From Berryella intestinalis (GTDB lineage: Bacteria > Actinomycetota > Coriobacteriia > Coriobacteriales > Eggerthellaceae): a stretch of DNA of 64,000 nucleotides. Shown here piece by piece: positions 3,746-25,525 of the stretch. The translations under genes were made by a program, and so were the position numbers. The DNA lies in NCBI RefSeq assembly GCF_000814825.1, contig NZ_CP009302.1:496001-560000 (forward strand), in the 5' to 3' direction. Under the pieces are notes generated by a model, which was not told the DNA's origin, searched no databases, and saw only the letters and a program-made list of their open reading frames with translations. How positions within the stretch are numbered: position 1 is the stretch's first letter; every line of letters starts with the position of its first letter.

Positions 3746-4041
3746 TGGCGTCTTTCGTCATCGCATTCGATTCCACTCACGCGGCCATCGCCGCGCAGGA
3801 GGTTCTGAAGAAGCCGCCCAACGGCGCGGATCCCGTGCGCTTTTCGGTCGTATCGACCCCGGCCGAGATAAGCGCGGGATGCGGGATATCGTTGTCGTTT
3901 GAAGCCGAAACGCGAATTAACGCGCTTGAAACGCTTGTTCTGCTTCATGAGTTTTACCAGGTAGCTAGCTTGTACGAGCGTGTTAGCGGCGCCTGCGGAA
4001 GCCGCTTCGAGCTTCTCGATGGCGGTTTAATCGGCTGGTAA
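3745..4041 (+). CDS. DUF3343 family putative selenium/sulfur carrier protein
   Basis: A 98-residue protein of the DUF3343 type. The recognisable parts are an N-terminal strand/helix (FVIAFDSTHAAIAAQEVL) and the AEISAGCGISLSF segment with the conserved Cys-Gly pair. Family members are small proteins found beside selenium genes and are proposed Se/S carriers. The ATG shares one base with the stop of the YedF-like gene, so the two are co-translated. The remaining cysteine in SGACGSRF is not a recognised motif. The assignment rests on motif and neighbourhood; the biochemical function is not established. Confidence 0.78.
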   Translation: MASFVIAFDSTHAAIAAQEVLKKPPNGADPVRFSVVSTPAEISAGCGISLSFEAETRINALETLVLLHEFYQVASLYERVSGACGSRFELLDGGLIGW

Positions 4042-4082
4042 CAAACTCGTTGTTTTCAGTCTTTTAGAATCGTCTGCGTTAG

Positions 4083-5471
<1,389 letters not shown>

Positions 5472-17213: not shown

Positions 17214-17729
17214 ATGGCCTGCGGTTTGACCTACATCCGCCAACTGACGTCGCCCCAGGCGACCAAGCAGCTTGCCGCGACGCTGTCGCCCTACCTGCGT
17301 CCGGGCGACATGATCCAGCTCAAAGGGGATCTCGGCGCGGGAAAGACCCAGTTCGTCCAAGGGGTGGCCGAAGGGCTGGGGGTCGCCGAGTCGGTGGTGA
17401 GCCCGACGTTCAACGTGCTGCTCTCCTACGATTCGGGAGCGCTGCCGCTGCACCACTTCGACCTGTACCGCCTCGATGGCCTCGACCAGCTGGAAGACAC
17501 CGGCTTTTACGATGTGGTCGACGCCGACGGGGTGAGCTTCGTCGAATGGGCCGAGAAGTGCCCGGGGTGCATGGGCGCCACGTTCCTGGAGATCGAGCTG
17601 ACCATCGACGAGGACGAAACCCGCCGCATACGCGTCCACGCCTACGGGCAGCGCGCCCGCTCGCTTCTCACGGTGTGGGGAAGCGATTCCAAATCCCGTC
17701 TCATGAAATTCGCAGGTGATAAGTCGTAA
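17214..17729 (+). CDS. tsaE: tRNA threonylcarbamoyladenosine synthesis ATPase TsaE
   Basis: TsaE is the ATPase that drives turnover of the TsaB-TsaD complex making t6A at position 37 of ANN-decoding tRNAs. The 171-residue protein has the Walker A motif GDLGAGKTQFVQG, the following SPTFNVLLSYD segment and the HFDLYRL motif typical of the family. The C-terminal 30 residues extend past the usual length without a recognised motif. Its TAA shares one base with the start of the tsaB-rimI-tsaD fusion, so all t6A partners except the TsaC/Sua5 step are translated together here. Confidence 0.95.
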   Translation: MACGLTYIRQLTSPQATKQLAATLSPYLRPGDMIQLKGDLGAGKTQFVQGVAEGLGVAESVVSPTFNVLLSYDSGALPLHHFDLYRLDGLDQLEDTGFYDVVDADGVSFVEWAEKCPGCMGATFLEIELTIDEDETRRIRVHAYGQRARSLLTVWGSDSKSRLMKFAGDKS

Positions 17730-20254
17730 TGCCGACAACTGAACCAAGCGGCCGCGCCGGCGCGCACGATGCGCTCGCCGGCTTCCGCAACCAAGCCGAC
17801 GGCCTTGCGCCCTCATCGGAGCGCGACCTCGTCCTCGCGTTCGACACCTCCAACGAGGTGGTTACGCTGGGGTTGGCGCGCATCGTGGCCGATGGGTGCC
17901 TCGAAGTCGTCGAGTCGCGCGTGATTCCCGCCCACCGCGCCTCGAACACCCAGCTGGTTCCCCAGATAGACCGCCTGATGGACGAAGCGGGGCAGCGGCG
18001 CGGCAGCCTCGCCTGCATCGCGGTCGGCCGCGGCCCGGGGTCGTTCACGGGCGTGCGCATCGCCATGGCCACGGCCAAGGGCATGTCCCAGGCTTTGGGG
18101 GTCGGCCTCGTCGGCCTTTCGACGCTTGATGCGATCGCGTGGGATGCCCAGCTCAAGGGCGTTCGCGGACCGATCGCGGTGGTCGCGGACGCCATGCGGG
18201 GCGAGGTGTACCCGGTCGCCTACGAGCTTTCCGACGCGGGCGTCGAGCGCCTTGGGGCCGATCGCGTGGTGAAGGCGCAGGATGCGGCCGACGGGTTCGC
18301 CGGCATGGGCGGTTTGCGGTTTACCGGCGACGCCCTGGTGAAGTACGCCGACCTGTTCGCCCGGCACGGCGAGCTGCTGGGGCAGGATCACTGGTACGCA
18401 ACCGGCACCGGCCTCATCGCCTGCCTGCAGCGCGCCTGGGAGGAGGGGCGGATCGACCCGCTCGACGCGCACCGCCACGATCCCGCGCTCGCGCTGCCGG
18501 TGTACACGCGGCTGTCCGATGCCGAGGAAAACGAGCGCGCGCGTCTTTCGTCCCTCGAACCGAAGAACCTCCGCACGGGCGTGCAGGATGCGCGGGCGAA
18601 GTCGCACTCCAGCATGCACGAGTCGTCTCCCATCGATGCGAACCAGGTGGTGAAGGGGATCCTGTACCGTCCGCTCGATGCGGCGCACGCCGCCGACGTC
18701 GCCGCGCTCGAAGCGCGGGTCATGGACGGGGAGCCCTGGAGCGAGCGCATGATCCTCGACGAGCTCGCCCAGCGCGACCGCGTATGGTGGGCGGCCTACG
18801 GGGCGCCCGATGGGGAGGGTGCGGGTATCACCGACGAGACGCTCGCGTCCGACCTGCGGTTGGCGGGGTATGCGGGCTGCCTTGTGGTCGACGGCGAGAT
18901 GCAGGTGCTGCGCATCGGGTCCGACGAGCGGCTGCGTCGCCGCGGTATCGCATCCGAGCTGATGAAGCGCATGGCCCGCGACGCGCGCGATCTGGGAGCC
19001 GATCGCTGTATGCTCGAGGTGCGCGTCGGAAACCGCGCAGCGCAGGCGTTCTACCGCTCGATGGGGCTGGCTGACGCGGGCGTGCGCCCCCGGTACTATT
19101 CCGATGGCGAGGACGCGCTGATCATGACGGGTGCGGTTCCCGCCGGCACCCACCGCGCGGGCGGCATGGAGGTGCGCGAGCAGGAGGAGAACGAGGCGGC
19201 CAGCGCCGAGCCGAAGCGACCGCTGATCTTCGCCATCGAGAGCTCGTGCGACGAGACGGCCGCGGCCATCGTGGACGGCGAGGGGAACCTGCTGGCCGAC
19301 GTGGTGGCTTCCCAGATCGATTTCCACTCGCGCTTCGGCGGGGTGGTTCCCGAGATCGCCAGCCGCAAGCATATCGAGGCGATCTGCGGGGTGTGCGAGG
19401 AGTGCTTCTCCGTCGCCGCCGGCAACCTTGGGCGCACCGGTTTGAGCTGGTCCGATATGGATGCGGTGAGCGTGACGTACGCCCCGGGCCTCGTGGGGGC
19501 GCTCGTCGTGGGCGTCGCGTTCGCCAAAGGGGCCGCCTGGGCTGCGGGAAAGCCCTTCATCGGGGTGAACCACCTCGAAGGCCACCTGTATGCGAACAAG
19601 ATCGGGGCGACCGACGTCGAGCCCCCCATGGTCGCGTCGCTTGTTTCGGGCGGCAACACGCTGCTCGTGCACGTGCGCGGTTGGGGCGATTACCGGGTGC
19701 TGGGTTCGACCATCGACGATGCGGTGGGGGAGGCGTTCGACAAGGTGGCCAAAGCTTTGGGGCTCGGGTATCCGGGCGGTCCGGTGATCTCGAAGTTCGC
19801 CGCCAAGGGCGACCCGAGCGCCATCGCCTTCCCGCGCGCCATGATGCATTCGGGCGACCTGCGCTTCTCGCTTTCCGGCCTGAAGACGGCGGTGGTGTCC
19901 CACATCAACGCCGAGCGGGCGGCCGGACGCGAGCCGAACGTGCCCGACATCGCGGCCAGCTTTCAGCAGGCGGTGATCGACGTGCAGGTGGCCAAATCGG
20001 CCGCTGCGCTGGACGAGACGGGCGCGCCCCTGTTCTGCCTGGGGGGAGGCGTGGCGGCCAACCCCGCTTTGCGGGCGGCCTACGAGAAGATGTGCTCGGA
20101 ACGCTCGGTGCGCCTGATCATGCCGCCTCTGCGCTCGTGCGGGGACAACGCCGGCATGATCGCGCTCGTGGCCCTCGACCGCTATCGGGACGGGCGGTTC
20201 TTCGGTTTGGACGCGGACGCCAGGGCCCGTACCGATTTGGAGCAGCCGTACTGA
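17729..20254 (+). CDS. tsaD: TsaB-RimI-TsaD triple fusion: t6A synthase with acetyltransferase domain
   Basis: One 841-residue polypeptide holds three usually separate proteins. Residues about 30-290 are TsaB (LVLAFDTSNEVVTLGLA and VGRGPGSFTGVRIAMATAKG). About 310-465 are a GNAT acetyltransferase like RimI, which acetylates ribosomal protein S18 (LRIGSDERLRRRGIASELM and AAQAFYRSMGL). About 490-841 are TsaD, the threonylcarbamoyl transferase (FAIESSCDETAAAIVD and the metal-binding histidines in VNHLEGHLYAN). Linkers are hydrophilic and no stop or internal start is evident. TsaB and TsaD normally form a heterodimer, so fusion fixes their ratio. The frame is uninterrupted throughout, so this is not an assembly join of separate genes. 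Confidence 0.94.
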   Translation: MPTTEPSGRAGAHDALAGFRNQADGLAPSSERDLVLAFDTSNEVVTLGLARIVADGCLEVVESRVIPAHRASNTQLVPQIDRLMDEAGQRRGSLACIAVGRGPGSFTGVRIAMATAKGMSQALGVGLVGLSTLDAIAWDAQLKGVRGPIAVVADAMRGEVYPVAYELSDAGVERLGADRVVKAQDAADGFAGMGGLRFTGDALVKYADLFARHGELLGQDHWYATGTGLIACLQRAWEEGRIDPLDAHRHDPALALPVYTRLSDAEENERARLSSLEPKNLRTGVQDARAKSHSSMHESSPIDANQVVKGILYRPLDAAHAADVAALEARVMDGEPWSERMILDELAQRDRVWWAAYGAPDGEGAGITDETLASDLRLAGYAGCLVVDGEMQVLRIGSDERLRRRGIASELMKRMARDARDLGADRCMLEVRVGNRAAQAFYRSMGLADAGVRPRYYSDGEDALIMTGAVPAGTHRAGGMEVREQEENEAASAEPKRPLIFAIESSCDETAAAIVDGEGNLLADVVASQIDFHSRFGGVVPEIASRKHIEAICGVCEECFSVAAGNLGRTGLSWSDMDAVSVTYAPGLVGALVVGVAFAKGAAWAAGKPFIGVNHLEGHLYANKIGATDVEPPMVASLVSGGNTLLVHVRGWGDYRVLGSTIDDAVGEAFDKVAKALGLGYPGGPVISKFAAKGDPSAIAFPRAMMHSGDLRFSLSGLKTAVVSHINAERAAGREPNVPDIAASFQQAVIDVQVAKSAAALDETGAPLFCLGGGVAANPALRAAYEKMCSERSVRLIMPPLRSCGDNAGMIALVALDRYRDGRFFGLDADARARTDLEQPY

Positions 20255-20305: not shown

Positions 20306-21049
20306 CTAGCGCTTGCGCGCCGTGTGGACCGCGGCGATGCCCCCCGTGCAGTTCGTCCACTCCACGTCGCAGAACCCCGCGTCCTCGAGCATGCGCGCGA
20401 AGGTTCGCTGGTCGGGGAAGGCCTTGATCGACTTCGAGAGGTACACGAACCCTTCCCGGTCCCCGGTTATGAGCCCTCCCCAGAAGGGGATGAGGTGCTT
20501 CAGGTAGAAGCCGTACAGGGCGCGCCAAACGGGATTGGGCGGCGTTGAGAACTCGAGGCAGGCCAGGGTGCCGCCCGGTTTCAGCACGCGGAACATCTCG
20601 GCGAGCGCGCGCTCGCGGTCGGGCATGTTGCGGATGCCGTAAGCCACGGTGACGACGTCGTAGGAGGCGTCGCTGTAGGGGATGTCCTGCGCATCGACGA
20701 CCTCGAAATCGATCGCCACGCCGTCTGCGCGTCCCTGCCCGTAGTGCTCGCGCGCCACCTCGAGCATCTCGCTCACCAGGTCGGTGCATTGGATGTGGGC
20801 GGGGCGCTTGGCGCGTGCGAGCGCGAACGAGACGTCGCCCGTCCCTCCCGCAAGGTCGAGCACCAGGCTCTGGGGGGTGACGGGGGCTCGGCGCACCAGC
20901 TCGCCCAGCCAAAGTCGATAGGCTCCGAAGCTCGATATCGCGTTGAACCGCTCGTACTTCTTCGCGATCGAGGAGAAGATCTCGCGAACGCGCTCTTTGG
21001 AGATCTCTTCGGGGGCGGTCTTGCCGGTTGCGGTATCGATGCTGCTCAT
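20306..21049 (-). CDS. menG: Demethylmenaquinone methyltransferase MenG/UbiE
   Basis: C-methylates demethylmenaquinone in the last step of menaquinone synthesis, using S-adenosylmethionine. The 247-residue product starts at ATG 21049 (MSSIDTATG). It carries the UbiE signatures: IAKKYERFNAISSFGAYRLW, the SAM-binding VLDLAGGTGDVSFALA, and VAYGIRNMPDRERALAEMFRVLKPGG. An open frame extends upstream, but its Arg-rich composition is not protein-like for this family. It supports menaquinone-based anaerobic respiration. The degenerate amidohydrolase related to futalosine-pathway deaminases is divergent from it. Confidence 0.93.
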   Translation of the reverse strand: MSSIDTATGKTAPEEISKERVREIFSSIAKKYERFNAISSFGAYRLWLGELVRRAPVTPQSLVLDLAGGTGDVSFALARAKRPAHIQCTDLVSEMLEVAREHYGQGRADGVAIDFEVVDAQDIPYSDASYDVVTVAYGIRNMPDRERALAEMFRVLKPGGTLACLEFSTPPNPVWRALYGFYLKHLIPFWGGLITGDREGFVYLSKSIKAFPDQRTFARMLEDAGFCDVEWTNCTGGIAAVHTARKR

Positions 21050-21355
21050 GTGCGTTGGCGGTCCTCGTCTTCTGGCCGGCGCGGCGCGCCGTGCGGAACA
21101 ATCCATCCAGTGTAAACGTCCCGCGCGGTTTTTGCGCCGCGCAGGCGCAATCTCCCTCAGCCCCCCATCGTGCCGCTTACCGCCCCGCCGTGCGCGCTCC
21201 CTGGATGGGCCAAGCGCGTTTCTCCTGCTCGATAGTGATTTCGGCAACGTTAAATCAAGGAGAAATAGCGACTGGTGCGGGCGCGGGAGCCGGCAATGCT
21301 AAAATGTCCCTTACGCGATTTCCCCACGTTCAACGTATGTGTAAGGCGGGTTTGT

Positions 21356-22711
21356 ATGCTTCTTTGCGCGCAGTACATCGTCCCGGTTGTCGGCACCCCG
21401 TTCCAAAACGGTGCGGTGCTGGTGCGGGATGGGAAGATTTGCGACATCGGCGACTCCGAGATGCTGAAGCTCCGGTACCCCGACGAGAAGCAGATCGACT
21501 ACGGCCGCGCGGCCCTCATGCCGGGCTTCATCGATCTGCAGACGCACCTCGAGAACTCCGTCATGCGCGGCACCATCAAAGACGGCTCGTACACCCAGTG
21601 GCTGCGGGCCATGCGCGAAACCTCCACGAAGCTCGGCGCCCGCGACTGGTACGCCTCCTCCGTTCTGGGAGGGCTCGAGGCGCTTACCAACGGCATCACC
21701 TGCGTCGCGGATATTTCCTCGACGGGCGCGTCGTGCTCGGCCATGCAGAAGCTGGGACTGCGCGGCGTGGTGTACCGCGAGGTGGGCGCTATGGATCGCC
21801 GCCTGGTGCGCCGCGCGATCTGCAACGCCGAAAACGACGTGGTCCGCTGGAGCGAGTCGGTGGATTCCGAGCGCATCAAGGTGGGCATCGCCCCCCGCGA
21901 GTCGTACATGTGCCATCCCGAGATCTACACCCTCGCCGCCAACCTGGCGCGCCGCGAGGGGATTCCGCTGTCCATCACCATCGGCGGCAGCTACGAGGAG
22001 GCGCGCTTCATCCGCTTCGGGGCGTCGAACCTTTCGGTGGCCAACATGACCGATCGGCACGGCTACGTCGAGATCCCGCCCTGGCTTCCCACGGGCGTGT
22101 CCCCGGTGCGCTACATTCTGAACTGGGGCGCGTTCGAGGCCGACAACGTGATGGCGGCCCACTGCGTGCACGTCGAGGACGAAGACATCAACAAGCTGAA
22201 GGAATACGACGTCGCCGTGGCGATGTGCCCGCGCTGCAACGCCCAGCTCGGCATGGGCATGGCGCCTTTGCGCGACTTCATCCGCTCGGGGCTGCGCGTG
22301 GGCTTGGGAACCGGCTACACGGCGGCCATCGACGCGACCGACATGATCGCCGAGACGCGCATCGCCATGCTCCTGCACCGCGCGCTGAACCCCGGCCGCT
22401 TCATCGCCGCCGACGATATGCTGCGTTTGTGCACCATCGAGGCGGCGCGCGCCCTCCATATGGAGGATCAGGTGGGATCCATCGAGGTGGGCAAGCTCGC
22501 CGACCTCGTCGCGGTCGATCTGTCGGGTTCGCATCAGGCGCCCAACGACGATCCGGCCTTCGCCATCGTGAGCACGTGCACGGGCGGCGACGTCCTGATG
22601 ACGATGGTGGGCGGGGAAATCCGCTACGAAAAGGATAAATGGCATGTCGATATCGAGGTGGCGCGCGACATCGCCCGCGTCATCGAGATTCGCGGAAAGC
22701 TCAGGGGGTAG
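21356..22711 (+). CDS. Amidohydrolase-fold protein with degraded metal site
   Basis: A 451-residue homologue of aminodeoxyfutalosine/SAH deaminases (MqnX, MtaD, TrzN type). The scaffold is clear: RAALMPGFIDLQTHLENS, AAHCVHVEDEDINKL, CPRCNAQLGMGMAPL and the C-terminal IEVGKLADLVAVDL. Several expected metal or catalytic ligands are replaced: the strand-1 HxH reads QTH, the strand-5 His-x-x-Glu region reads TIGGSYEE, and the strand-8 GTD reads GTG. Only the second His of HxH and the strand-6 His remain. It is therefore likely not a standard hydrolase. ATG 21356 follows AAGGCGGG. It is co-transcribed with the small membrane protein starting 1 base later. Confidence 0.82.
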   Translation: MLLCAQYIVPVVGTPFQNGAVLVRDGKICDIGDSEMLKLRYPDEKQIDYGRAALMPGFIDLQTHLENSVMRGTIKDGSYTQWLRAMRETSTKLGARDWYASSVLGGLEALTNGITCVADISSTGASCSAMQKLGLRGVVYREVGAMDRRLVRRAICNAENDVVRWSESVDSERIKVGIAPRESYMCHPEIYTLAANLARREGIPLSITIGGSYEEARFIRFGASNLSVANMTDRHGYVEIPPWLPTGVSPVRYILNWGAFEADNVMAAHCVHVEDEDINKLKEYDVAVAMCPRCNAQLGMGMAPLRDFIRSGLRVGLGTGYTAAIDATDMIAETRIAMLLHRALNPGRFIAADDMLRLCTIEAARALHMEDQVGSIEVGKLADLVAVDLSGSHQAPNDDPAFAIVSTCTGGDVLMTMVGGEIRYEKDKWHVDIEVARDIARVIEIRGKLRG

Positions 22712-22925: not shown

Positions 22926-23021
22926 CTGCCGCTTGGGTATTTGACGTGATTTCTTATGCGGGGGACATGCATGGAAGCGCCCGTTTCGGGTTGTGGTAGG
23001 ATGGCGGTTCGTTAAGACGTC

Positions 23022-23044
23022 GGGCCTTCCGCGACGGAAGGCCC
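23022..23044 (+). promoter_or_regulatory. 10-bp hairpin in the tat leader
   Basis: GGGCCTTCCG (23022-23031) and CGGAAGGCCC (23035-23044) form a perfect stem with a CGA loop. It ends only about 6 bases before the Shine-Dalgarno of the tat gene. There is no T-run. It may end upstream transcription, protect the transcript or affect ribosome access. Confidence 0.5.
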
Positions 23045-23061
23045 TCTCAAAGGGGTACGCA

Positions 23062-23580
23062 GTGTTTGGCATCGGTGGTTTCGAGCTTTTCCTCATTCTG
23101 CTGTTCGGCTTCCTCATCTTCGGTCCGGACAAGCTTCCTGCAATGGCCAAGACCTTGGGCAGGTGGATCGCCAAGTTCCGCAGCGCCCAGCAGGAGATGA
23201 GCGAAGTCATCAAAAACGACGTGTTCGATCCCAATTCCGACGAGCCGTTCAAGGATCCCACCGAGGCAGTGAACAAGGTGGTCAGCAAGGTTTCCGGCGT
23301 GACGAAGGCGGCCGTCGACTCGAAGAAGGCCGCTTCCGAACCTGCGCCCGCATCCGGCGCTTCGGCTTCAGCGGGGGCTTCGTCTGCGGCATCCGACGAT
23401 AAGAAGCCGGCCGTCGCCCCGCGTCAGGAAAGCTTCACCGAGCGCAAGGCCCGCTACGAGCGGGAGAGGGCGGCGAAGAAGGCCGCCGAGGAGGCGACTG
23501 CCAAAGAGGCTTCCGCCGCTGCGCCCGCATCCGATGCGGCTGCGGCGTCCGCCGACAACAAGACCGAAGGGGGAGAATAG
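23062..23580 (+). CDS. tatB: Sec-independent translocase TatA/TatB family protein
   Basis: Component of the twin-arginine translocase that exports folded proteins. The 172-residue product starts at GTG 23062 with AAGGGG upstream. It has the short N-terminal membrane helix FELFLILLFGFLIFGPDKLP, with the family FGP hinge, and an amphipathic helix (MAKTLGRWIAKFRSAQQEM). The remaining ~110 residues are Ala/Lys/Glu/Ser-rich low complexity. Length and charged tail are more like TatB than TatA. tatC starts 2 bases later. The exported flavoprotein at 29120 carries a matching signal peptide. Confidence 0.9.
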   Translation: MFGIGGFELFLILLFGFLIFGPDKLPAMAKTLGRWIAKFRSAQQEMSEVIKNDVFDPNSDEPFKDPTEAVNKVVSKVSGVTKAAVDSKKAASEPAPASGASASAGASSAASDDKKPAVAPRQESFTERKARYERERAAKKAAEEATAKEASAAAPASDAAAASADNKTEGGE

Positions 23581-23582
23581 CC

Positions 23583-24416
23583 ATGCCCATCGGTCCCGCG
23601 CGTATGCCCTTGATGGAGCATCTGGGCGAGCTTCGCATGCGGTTGGTCCGCATCTTCGCCGTTTTGCTGGTTGCCGTCATCGTGTTCTACATGGCCACGC
23701 CGACGCTCATCCAGTTCCTCATGATCCCCATCGGGGATTCGGTGGGGATCGACCCGGCCACGGGGGCGGCGCAGCTCTACGTCCTCGACCCGTTCGAGGG
23801 TTTCTCCGTGCGCTTCCTGGTGTCGTTCTGGGCGTCCATCGTCGCGACGTCCCCGGTCATCCTCTGGCAGATCATCGCGTTTTTCCTCCCGGCCCTCAAG
23901 CCCAAGGAGCGCAAGTGGTTCATGCCCACCTTCGCGGCGGCCACGGCCCTGTTCATCTTCGGCACCATCTTCTGCTACCTGGTGATCCTGAGCCCCGCGT
24001 TCGACTGGCTGGTCGATCAGTCGGCCGGCGTCGGGCTGGTCCAGGCGCGCCTGTCGACCTACGTCGATATCATCATCAAGTTCGAGCTCGGGTTCGGCGT
24101 GGCCTTCGAGCTGCCCATCGTCATCTTCTACCTGGTCATCTTCGACGTCGTGCCGTACAAGAAGCTGCGCAACAGCTGGCGCTACGTATACGTCGGCCTG
24201 CTGACGTTCTCGGCGATCGTCACGCCGGACGCGAACCCCGTCACCATGGGGCTCATGTTCGCGGCGCTCATCGTCTTGTACGAGGCGTCTCTGATGTTCG
24301 CGCGGGTGGTCCTTGCGCGGCGCATCAAGCGGCAAAACGCCGAGCTCGCCGAAGAGGAGGCCGCCGAACGGGCGGCGGAAGGGTCCACCAAGAAAGCGGT
24401 CGTGAAGAAGAAGTAG
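23583..24416 (+). CDS. tatC: Twin-arginine translocase subunit TatC
   Basis: TatC is the signal-peptide receptor of the Tat pathway. The 277-residue protein has six predicted membrane helices. Landmarks are the N-terminal PLMEHLGELRMRLVR (cytosolic signal-recognition segment), FVSFWASIVATSPVILWQI-like helix 2, FFLPALKPKERKWF, and FELGFGVAFELPIVIF in the loop and helix 4 region. A Lys-rich C-terminus (KKAVVKKK) lies in the cytosol. It immediately follows the TatA/B-like gene. A hairpin downstream probably limits read-through into hypA. Confidence 0.95.
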   Translation: MPIGPARMPLMEHLGELRMRLVRIFAVLLVAVIVFYMATPTLIQFLMIPIGDSVGIDPATGAAQLYVLDPFEGFSVRFLVSFWASIVATSPVILWQIIAFFLPALKPKERKWFMPTFAAATALFIFGTIFCYLVILSPAFDWLVDQSAGVGLVQARLSTYVDIIIKFELGFGVAFELPIVIFYLVIFDVVPYKKLRNSWRYVYVGLLTFSAIVTPDANPVTMGLMFAALIVLYEASLMFARVVLARRIKRQNAELAEEEAAERAAEGSTKKAVVKKK

Positions 24417-24482: not shown

Positions 24483-24845
24483 ATGCACGAACTGGGGATC
24501 ATGTCGGGCGTCCTGGATGCGGTGAACGCGTCGGCGGCGTCTGCGGGCGCGTTGAAGGTCACGAGGATCGATCTGTCCATCGGCGAGATGACCGAGGCCA
24601 TCGACGATGCGCTGGAATTCGCCTTCGAGGCGCTGTCCGAAGGGACGCTGAGCGCCGGCGCCGAATTGGTGCTGCACAAAGTGTCTCCCAGAAGCGTATG
24701 CTTGGACTGTGGTGAGGAATTCGACCATGATCGCTTCCACCGGGCCTGCCCGAAGTGCGAGAGCTATTCGACCGACCTCGTGGCGGGGCGCGAGCTGCGC
24801 ATCGACTCCATCGAGGTCGATCTGCCCGACGACGGGGAAGCGTAG
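24483..24845 (+). CDS. hypA: Hydrogenase maturation nickel metallochaperone HypA
   Basis: HypA delivers nickel to [NiFe]-hydrogenase or urease precursors, together with HypB. The 120-residue product begins MHELGI, whose His2 and Glu3 bind nickel. It has the structural zinc site CLDCGEEF ... CPKCES, two CxxC motifs near residues 77 and 94. AGAGGAG precedes the ATG. The hypB gene follows after 29 bases. No hydrogenase or urease structural gene is in the window, so the client lies elsewhere. Confidence 0.94.
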   Translation: MHELGIMSGVLDAVNASAASAGALKVTRIDLSIGEMTEAIDDALEFAFEALSEGTLSAGAELVLHKVSPRSVCLDCGEEFDHDRFHRACPKCESYSTDLVAGRELRIDSIEVDLPDDGEA

Positions 24846-24874: not shown

Positions 24875-25525
24875 ATGCAGATAGACCTGAAGCAACCGAT
24901 CCTCGATAAGAACGACTCGCTTGCCGCCGAGCTGCGGCAGCGTTTCGACGAACACCACGTGTACGTGCTGAACCTGCTGGCCAGCCCAGGATCGGGCAAG
25001 ACCTCGACCATCCTGGCCACTATCGACGCCCTGCGCGACGAGTTCAACATCGCGGTGATCGAGGGCGACATCGCCAGCAGCGTCGACGCCGAGAAGATCA
25101 AGAACCAGGGGATCCCCGCCGTCCAGATCAACACGGGGGGCGCCTGCCATCTGGAAAGCGCCATGCTCAAGCGCGCCATCGACGTGCTGGATCTTTCCCG
25201 CCTCGACCTCATTATCATCGAGAACGTGGGCAACCTGGTCTGTCCGACCGATTTCTACCTGGGGGAGAACAGCAAGGTCATGATCCTGTCGGTTCCCGAG
25301 GGACACGACAAGCCCTTGAAGTACCCGGGCGTGTTCCAGGCCTCCGACGCCGTGATCCTCAACAAGGTGGACACGCTTCCCGTGTTCGATTTCGACCGCG
25401 AGGCGTTCGAGGCCTCGGTGCGCGAGCTGAACCCGGCGGCCCCCATCTTCCCCATCGCCGCGACCAAGGGCGACGGGGTCGAGGAATGGGCCGAGTACCT
25501 GGCCGAGAAGATCCGCAACGTGTAG
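24875..25525 (+). CDS. hypB: Hydrogenase maturation GTPase HypB
   Basis: GTPase that powers nickel insertion with HypA. The 216-residue protein has the P-loop LASPGSGKTSTILA, the switch region VIEGDIASSVDAEKI, the conserved metal-site segment GGACHLE and the guanine-specificity motif LNKVD. The N-terminal His-rich nickel store and CXXCGC motif found in some HypB proteins are missing. GAAGGAGG supports ATG 24875. The gene lies between hypA and nadE with gaps of 29 and 25 bases, so all three probably share a transcript. Confidence 0.94.
   Translation: MQIDLKQPILDKNDSLAAELRQRFDEHHVYVLNLLASPGSGKTSTILATIDALRDEFNIAVIEGDIASSVDAEKIKNQGIPAVQINTGGACHLESAMLKRAIDVLDLSRLDLIIIENVGNLVCPTDFYLGENSKVMILSVPEGHDKPLKYPGVFQASDAVILNKVDTLPVFDFDREAFEASVRELNPAAPIFPIAATKGDGVEEWAEYLAEKIRNV

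Follow-up and report, generated by a model that had tools for sequence, protein, structure and literature searches.

The window, i.e. the whole stretch of 64,000 nucleotides of DNA from the gut actinobacterium Berryella intestinalis that was analysed, encodes a protein of the amidohydrolase fold that has lost its canonical metal site while the protein itself stays under selection. We consider the chances about even that this presumed former deaminase-type enzyme now works without catalysis, binding a ligand or partner or serving as a scaffold next to a quinone methyltransferase. Known pseudoenzymes usually go back to a single ancient loss. In the present family, intact, half-dismantled and fully dismantled orthologues occur in a conserved gene order among close relatives, which makes it testable when and why the need for a metal ends. 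Furthermore, the family draws attention to a quinone operon of anaerobic Actinomycetota (TIGR04190 radical-SAM protein, UbiE, amidohydrolase and polyprenyl synthase) that is uncharacterised. A search of the open-licence PMC literature found no publication on the family.

The metal site and the nearest deaminases

The reading frame contains no internal stop on translation, and its start (Table 1) is in accord with the orthologues (MLL...); an in-frame GTG is also present at 21275. The product matches Pfam Amidohydro_1 over residues 54-422 (168.6 bits, cut-off 25, E 2.8e-49), which places it in the superfamily. An AlphaFold model built from 46 orthologues reached a mean pLDDT of 91.8, with only residues 232-240 listed below 50; as modelled, the protein is a complete Amidohydro_1 barrel, the fold of which is predicted with confidence. 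The ligand positions are found in the model at or near the expected ends of the barrel strands (strands 58-63, 205-209, 265-269 and 315-317).

Table 1. Genes and metal-site residues in the window, with residue numbers referring to the amidohydrolase-fold protein
Feature	Position	Strand	Remark
UbiE/MenG-type quinone methyltransferase	20306..21049	-	divergent neighbour in the window; in other families upstream on the same strand
Amidohydrolase-fold protein with dismantled metal site, 451 aa	21356..22711	+	Q62-T-H64, T208, G211, H269, G320-Y321
QTH replacing the HxH metal motif (residues 62-64)	21539..21547	+	codons Q62 21539-21541, H64 21545-21547; H62 and H64 invariant in 19/19 outgroup rows
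T208 replacing the strand-5 His, G211 replacing the HxxE Glu	21977..21988	+	codons T208 21977-21979, G211 21986-21988; from alignment
H269, strand-6 His, kept	22160..22162	+	codon 22160-22162; from alignment
G320-Y321 replacing Asp-Ser of GTDSP	22313..22318	+	codon G320 22313-22315; from alignment
70-aa basic coil with C-terminal membrane segment	22713..22925	+	next gene 3' of the amidohydrolase gene
TatA/B-type protein	22993..23580	+	start approximate; family match
TatC	23583..24416	+	conserved gene order
HypA-like gene (presumed)	24483..24845	+	conserved gene order; named by its sequence
HypB-like gene (presumed)	24875..25525	+	conserved gene order; named by its sequence

Metal-dependent amidohydrolases are recognised by HxH, a strand-5 His and a strand-8 Asp, and the sequence-only reading had described this site as dismantled. 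The alignment bears this out: QTH is found at 62-64, the strand-5 His has become T208 and the Asp of GTD has become G320, so that only H64 and the strand-6 H269 are left of the metal ligands. Moreover, the Glu of the HxxE motif has become Gly211, a change absent from that reading. The HxH and GTD positions were set against the solved MTA/SAH deaminase 4f0r, and all five ligand positions together with HxxE were set against the same structure by way of the deep homologue L206, which aligns with 4f0r from end to end (E 7e-59) and matches it at every catalytic position.

The label "aminodeoxyfutalosine deaminase-like", which had been given to the protein from its sequence, is not the best one, because MTA/SAH-type models and structures outscore it and no match to MqnA/MqnD was found in the genome. 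The nearest solved fold is the MTA/SAH-type adenosine deaminase 4f0s (Z 52.0, rmsd 1.9, 419 residues aligned), and the aminofutalosine deaminase 7lkk follows below it (Z 44.4). Likewise, the best NCBIfam models are of the MTA/SAH/5'-deoxyadenosine deaminase type, with 187.9 bits (cut-off 540) and, for 5'-deoxyadenosine deaminase, 179.3 bits (cut-off 522). The MTA/SAH model NF012037 gives 116.6 bits, far from its equivalog cut-off of 779, and none of the 25 NCBIfam models listed for the protein reaches its cut-off. Judged from these comparisons, the nearest characterised group is that of the MTA/SAH and 5'-deoxyadenosine deaminases (TRZ/ATZ group; 4f0r/4f0s, TM0936), with a fold likeness over the full length, rather than the aminofutalosine deaminases. 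However, the window protein differs from the MTA/SAH deaminases by Q62, T208, G211 and G320 at catalytic positions, including Gly211 where these enzymes have their proton-shuttling Glu, and by scores far under the curated cut-offs. With the aminofutalosine deaminases (7lkj/7lkk) it has the common superfamily fold and a quinone context; the score for their model NF006269, 132.7 bits, is below the cut-off of 320. An assignment as MqnX was ruled out by the model scores and by the missing MqnA/MqnD, since the genome of the window has no match to PF02621, the family of both proteins. PF02621 was present in 14 of 25 further genomes from elsewhere in the class and the order, where it adjoins genes which we take from their sequences to be mqnE and mqnC, and 11 of the 25 carry the amidohydrolase gene without PF02621. 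Hence, the amidohydrolase is not tied to the futalosine pathway.

Repeated loss of ligands in a protein under selection

Some match to the protein was found in 57 of 60 genomes, a count that includes the window's own genome and paralogues. At E<=1e-60, orthologues are present in 155 of 296 genomes across the class, and at E<=1e-80 in 62 of 396 genomes of a sample that covers other classes of the phylum and includes Coriobacteriia. The alignment comprises 103 distinct orthologues from the fetched loci and not every matching genome. At positions 62/64/208/269/320 it reads HHHHD in 71 of the 103, and at least one of the positions is lost in the remaining 32. Each of the 19 rows that represent other orders of the class has intact ligands, while rows within the order are divided into 52 intact and 32 others.

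The substitutions are fixed within the genus of the window, where all three members with the gene (L001, L003 and L004) have the pattern QHTHG. The fourth genus member searched, G002, gave no amidohydrolase match, and its ubiE-coil-tat stretch (L111) lacks the gene. Two further members of the clade, L006 and L034, also have G320 and Y321, which makes this pair common to five of five, and L006 has lost H64 as well. L034, together with its near-copy L033, has neither the strand-5 His nor the Asp left and carries Glu at 211, unlike nearly all orthologues. Another clade has replaced H64 and H208 jointly by Arg and E108 by Asp in all eight rows tested (L014, L015, L019, L024, L140, L143, L176 and L180). 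Altogether, 20 distinct non-intact patterns were counted over the 32 dismantled rows.

On a tree made without the ligand columns, the intact and lost states require at least 13 changes, or 15 losses when regain is barred. Six of the changes are forced by well-supported branches, and this number is the cautious floor because weak forks are frequent in the tree (31 of 105 open). Counted column by column on this tree, the five ligand positions show 12, 10, 9, 7 and 5 changes; the median over 95 outgroup-invariant columns is 4 (p 0.003 for the ligands against the others). The signal is weaker in a simpler test, which orders 110 outgroup-invariant columns from least to best kept and puts the ligands at ranks 16, 23, 36, 37 and 52 (p 0.05). 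As read from alignment and tree, the ligands were lost many times in Eggerthellaceae and some neighbouring families.

Of 16 homologues that represent other classes of the phylum, the ligands are intact in 14, and position 211 is Glu in six, Gly in nine and Thr in one. By contrast, Glu occupies this position in a single one of the 103 orthologues (L034), and 93 have Gly. As read directly from the sampled sequences, the proton shuttle was thus lost first and the metal later.

Two genomic correlates of the metal-site loss were tried and rejected. A tie to the loss of MenD had looked strong at first within Eggerthellaceae; it fails on G119, G205, G278, G285 and G290, where the site is intact and MenD gave no match, as is likewise the case in several families of the order. 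A tie to the loss of TIGR04190 fails on G035, G007 and G023, where the radical-SAM gene is present and the site is dismantled.

The dN/dS ratio is 0.060 for the pair with the nearest relative (L001-L003) and 0.243 for L001-L004. Six dismantled pairs range from 0.056 to 0.243 and eleven intact pairs from 0.019 to 0.231; the dismantled pair L019-L180, with saturated dS, gave no ratio. The window protein retains 87 of the 110 outgroup-invariant columns and, outside the ligands, 36 of the 45 that are polar or aromatic. Dismantled rows keep a median of 94% over 88 columns that are at least 95% conserved in intact rows, a figure which is partly circular for the ligands. E66, W82, Y253, W257 and R342 are present in all 32 dismantled rows; W82 and Y253 are common to this family and paralogous deaminases, whereas E66, W257 and R342 set it apart from them. 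The open frame and the low dN/dS thus speak for a maintained protein and not for a pseudogene, and the sequences combine lost catalytic residues with purifying selection, as expected of a pseudoenzyme. Nevertheless, dismantled rows are more divergent than intact rows (0.888 versus 0.800, p 0.006), also as a ratio to TatC plus HypB (0.650 versus 0.598, p 0.015). The rows are non-independent in both comparisons, and the second includes the row L096 with a wrong HypB (29% match). The higher divergence is consistent with a mild relaxation rather than decay. The gene is missing from G002 of the same genus, G012 and G034, all of which retain ubiE and the tat genes; hence, its present role is dispensable and can be lost.

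Quinone genes and possible roles

In 18 class-level loci with the genes on one strand, TIGR04190 is located upstream of the amidohydrolase gene in 16 and UbiE precedes it in 15. A polyprenyl synthase was upstream in seven of seven deep loci tested; of the 16 deep loci retrieved, nine were examined by their gene lists, and two of these showed no polyprenyl synthase. Over 60 genomes, UbiE and the amidohydrolase were both present in 42, one of them alone in 5, the other alone in 6, and neither in 7 (p 0.002), a co-occurrence driven in part by whole families without either gene. With UbiE, TIGR04190 and polyprenyl synthase as neighbours, the gene belongs to quinone metabolism. The TIGR04190 B12 radical-SAM protein (L157:6886-8658 and similar loci) is uncharacterised and adjoins UbiE and the amidohydrolase class-wide; we infer it to be a candidate for quinone ring modification. 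Its model was not named in any paper found in the open-licence PMC literature.

The genome of the window itself has a top TIGR04190 match of 28.7 bits (cut-off 500) and for MenD only a low-scoring match of 80 bits (cut-off 244), while a UbiA-type prenyltransferase and UbiE are present. This gene set, without PF02621 or MenD, would suit the finishing of quinones from an outside precursor, i.e. a possible salvage. Methyl- and dimethylmenaquinones are reported as products of Coriobacteriia (PMC13386864).

The ancestor of the protein would have been a metal-dependent MTA/SAH-type deaminase in a quinone operon with UbiE, the B12 radical-SAM protein and polyprenyl synthase. It would have been a helper, probably with a substrate of the adenosyl type, for instance SAH or 5'-deoxyadenosine, which UbiE and radical-SAM enzymes give off. 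The proton-shuttling Glu would have been lost first, before the Coriobacteriia arose and with the metal ligands still in place, followed by repeated ligand losses in Eggerthellaceae and some neighbouring families. The descendant may have kept binding only, either of a small ligand or of a partner protein with UbiE as the prime suspect. That the window protein most likely still binds one or the other is suggested by the kept fold and family-specific residues. Dihydroorotase belongs to the amidohydrolase superfamily, and the CRMP or dihydropyrimidinase-related proteins of eukaryotes are metal-less relatives which serve as binding proteins, although their lineage and function are unrelated to the window protein. 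A precedent is the ATCase complex of P. aeruginosa, in which an inactive dihydroorotase-like chain is reported to be required by its ATCase partner (PMC7053772). It illustrates that a change from enzyme to binding subunit is possible and a way in which the window protein may work; however, the pseudo-dihydroorotase is of another subfamily and pathway, and we claim no membership. The most extended form of this proposal is that a quinone-operon enzyme became non-catalytic at least 13 times in one order, shuttle and then metal, with a fixed Arg pair in one clade, and that its present task is to support quinone methylation as a scaffold that binds a ligand or a partner; this is tentative, and we would sooner doubt than accept it.

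Some members of the amidohydrolase superfamily work without a metal, hence missing ligands are no proof of missing catalysis. A metal-independent enzyme with new chemistry in a rebuilt pocket (Q62, T208 and G320-Y321, or R64 and R208 in the other clade) would explain that these pocket changes are conserved within their clades and that the five residues from E66 to R342 are kept in every dismantled row. We nevertheless regard it as unlikely, because the replacements vary so much by lineage, unlike what selection for one new reaction would give, and no genus-wide new His or Cys occurs at an obvious ligand position. A modest chance also goes to a vestige under relaxed selection, i.e. an operon enzyme that became useless in host-associated Eggerthellaceae and decays slowly before deletion. 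The recurrence of ligand losses and gene absence within one family and the slightly higher divergence of dismantled rows would fit such a course; against it stand the low dN/dS in the genus, the open frame, the outgroup-invariant columns kept and the QHTHG pattern, which is held across a genus with 74% identity.

That H64 and H269, present in all three genus members, still hold a metal together with replacement ligands is very unlikely: acidic residues gained and shared in the genus (e.g. E182, E274 and E362) are off the ligand positions, as judged in sequence, and L006 of the same clade has no H64. Finally, the protein and the coil could serve the adjacent Tat translocon as an assembly or export factor, with the quinone genes being incidental. 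The order amidohydrolase-coil-TatA-TatC-HypA-HypB is kept in many loci, but TatC occurs in 58 of 60 genomes, those without the amidohydrolase included, and in one other genus (L164, L166-L168, L170-L172) the amidohydrolase gene stands with UbiE in stretches in which no Tat gene was found, which makes this explanation barely credible. Among these readings, a non-catalytic binding or scaffold protein is the one we prefer.

The membrane coil and other neighbouring genes

The reading frame of the coil begins one base past the amidohydrolase stop. The coupling of the two, as proposed by the sequence-only reading, holds as a matter of gene order, with relatives of the coil in 51 of the 103 loci searched, at least one match being doubtful. 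It does not extend to an obligate partnership, since the coil persists in L111 and L112, where the amidohydrolase gene is deleted. Elsewhere in the class, the amidohydrolase gene is followed by two genes, one for a TPR protein of the membrane and one for an acidic protein with a single helix (L157:3085-3768 and 3826-4221). The coil aligned over 33 columns (hhalign 93.7%) with the N-terminal anchor of this TPR protein, which occurs class-wide, and is possibly a shortened form of the membrane-anchored TPR protein in that slot, a likeness that is only suggestive because membrane segments align easily.

On the other side of the methyltransferase gene, an ORF of 841 aa (17729-20254, plus strand) matches TsaB, a RimI-like acetyltransferase and TsaD in succession, with scores over the cut-off for TIGR03725, just under it for TIGR01575 and over it for TIGR03723. 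By these matches, it is a fusion of three genes for the modification of tRNA and ribosomes.
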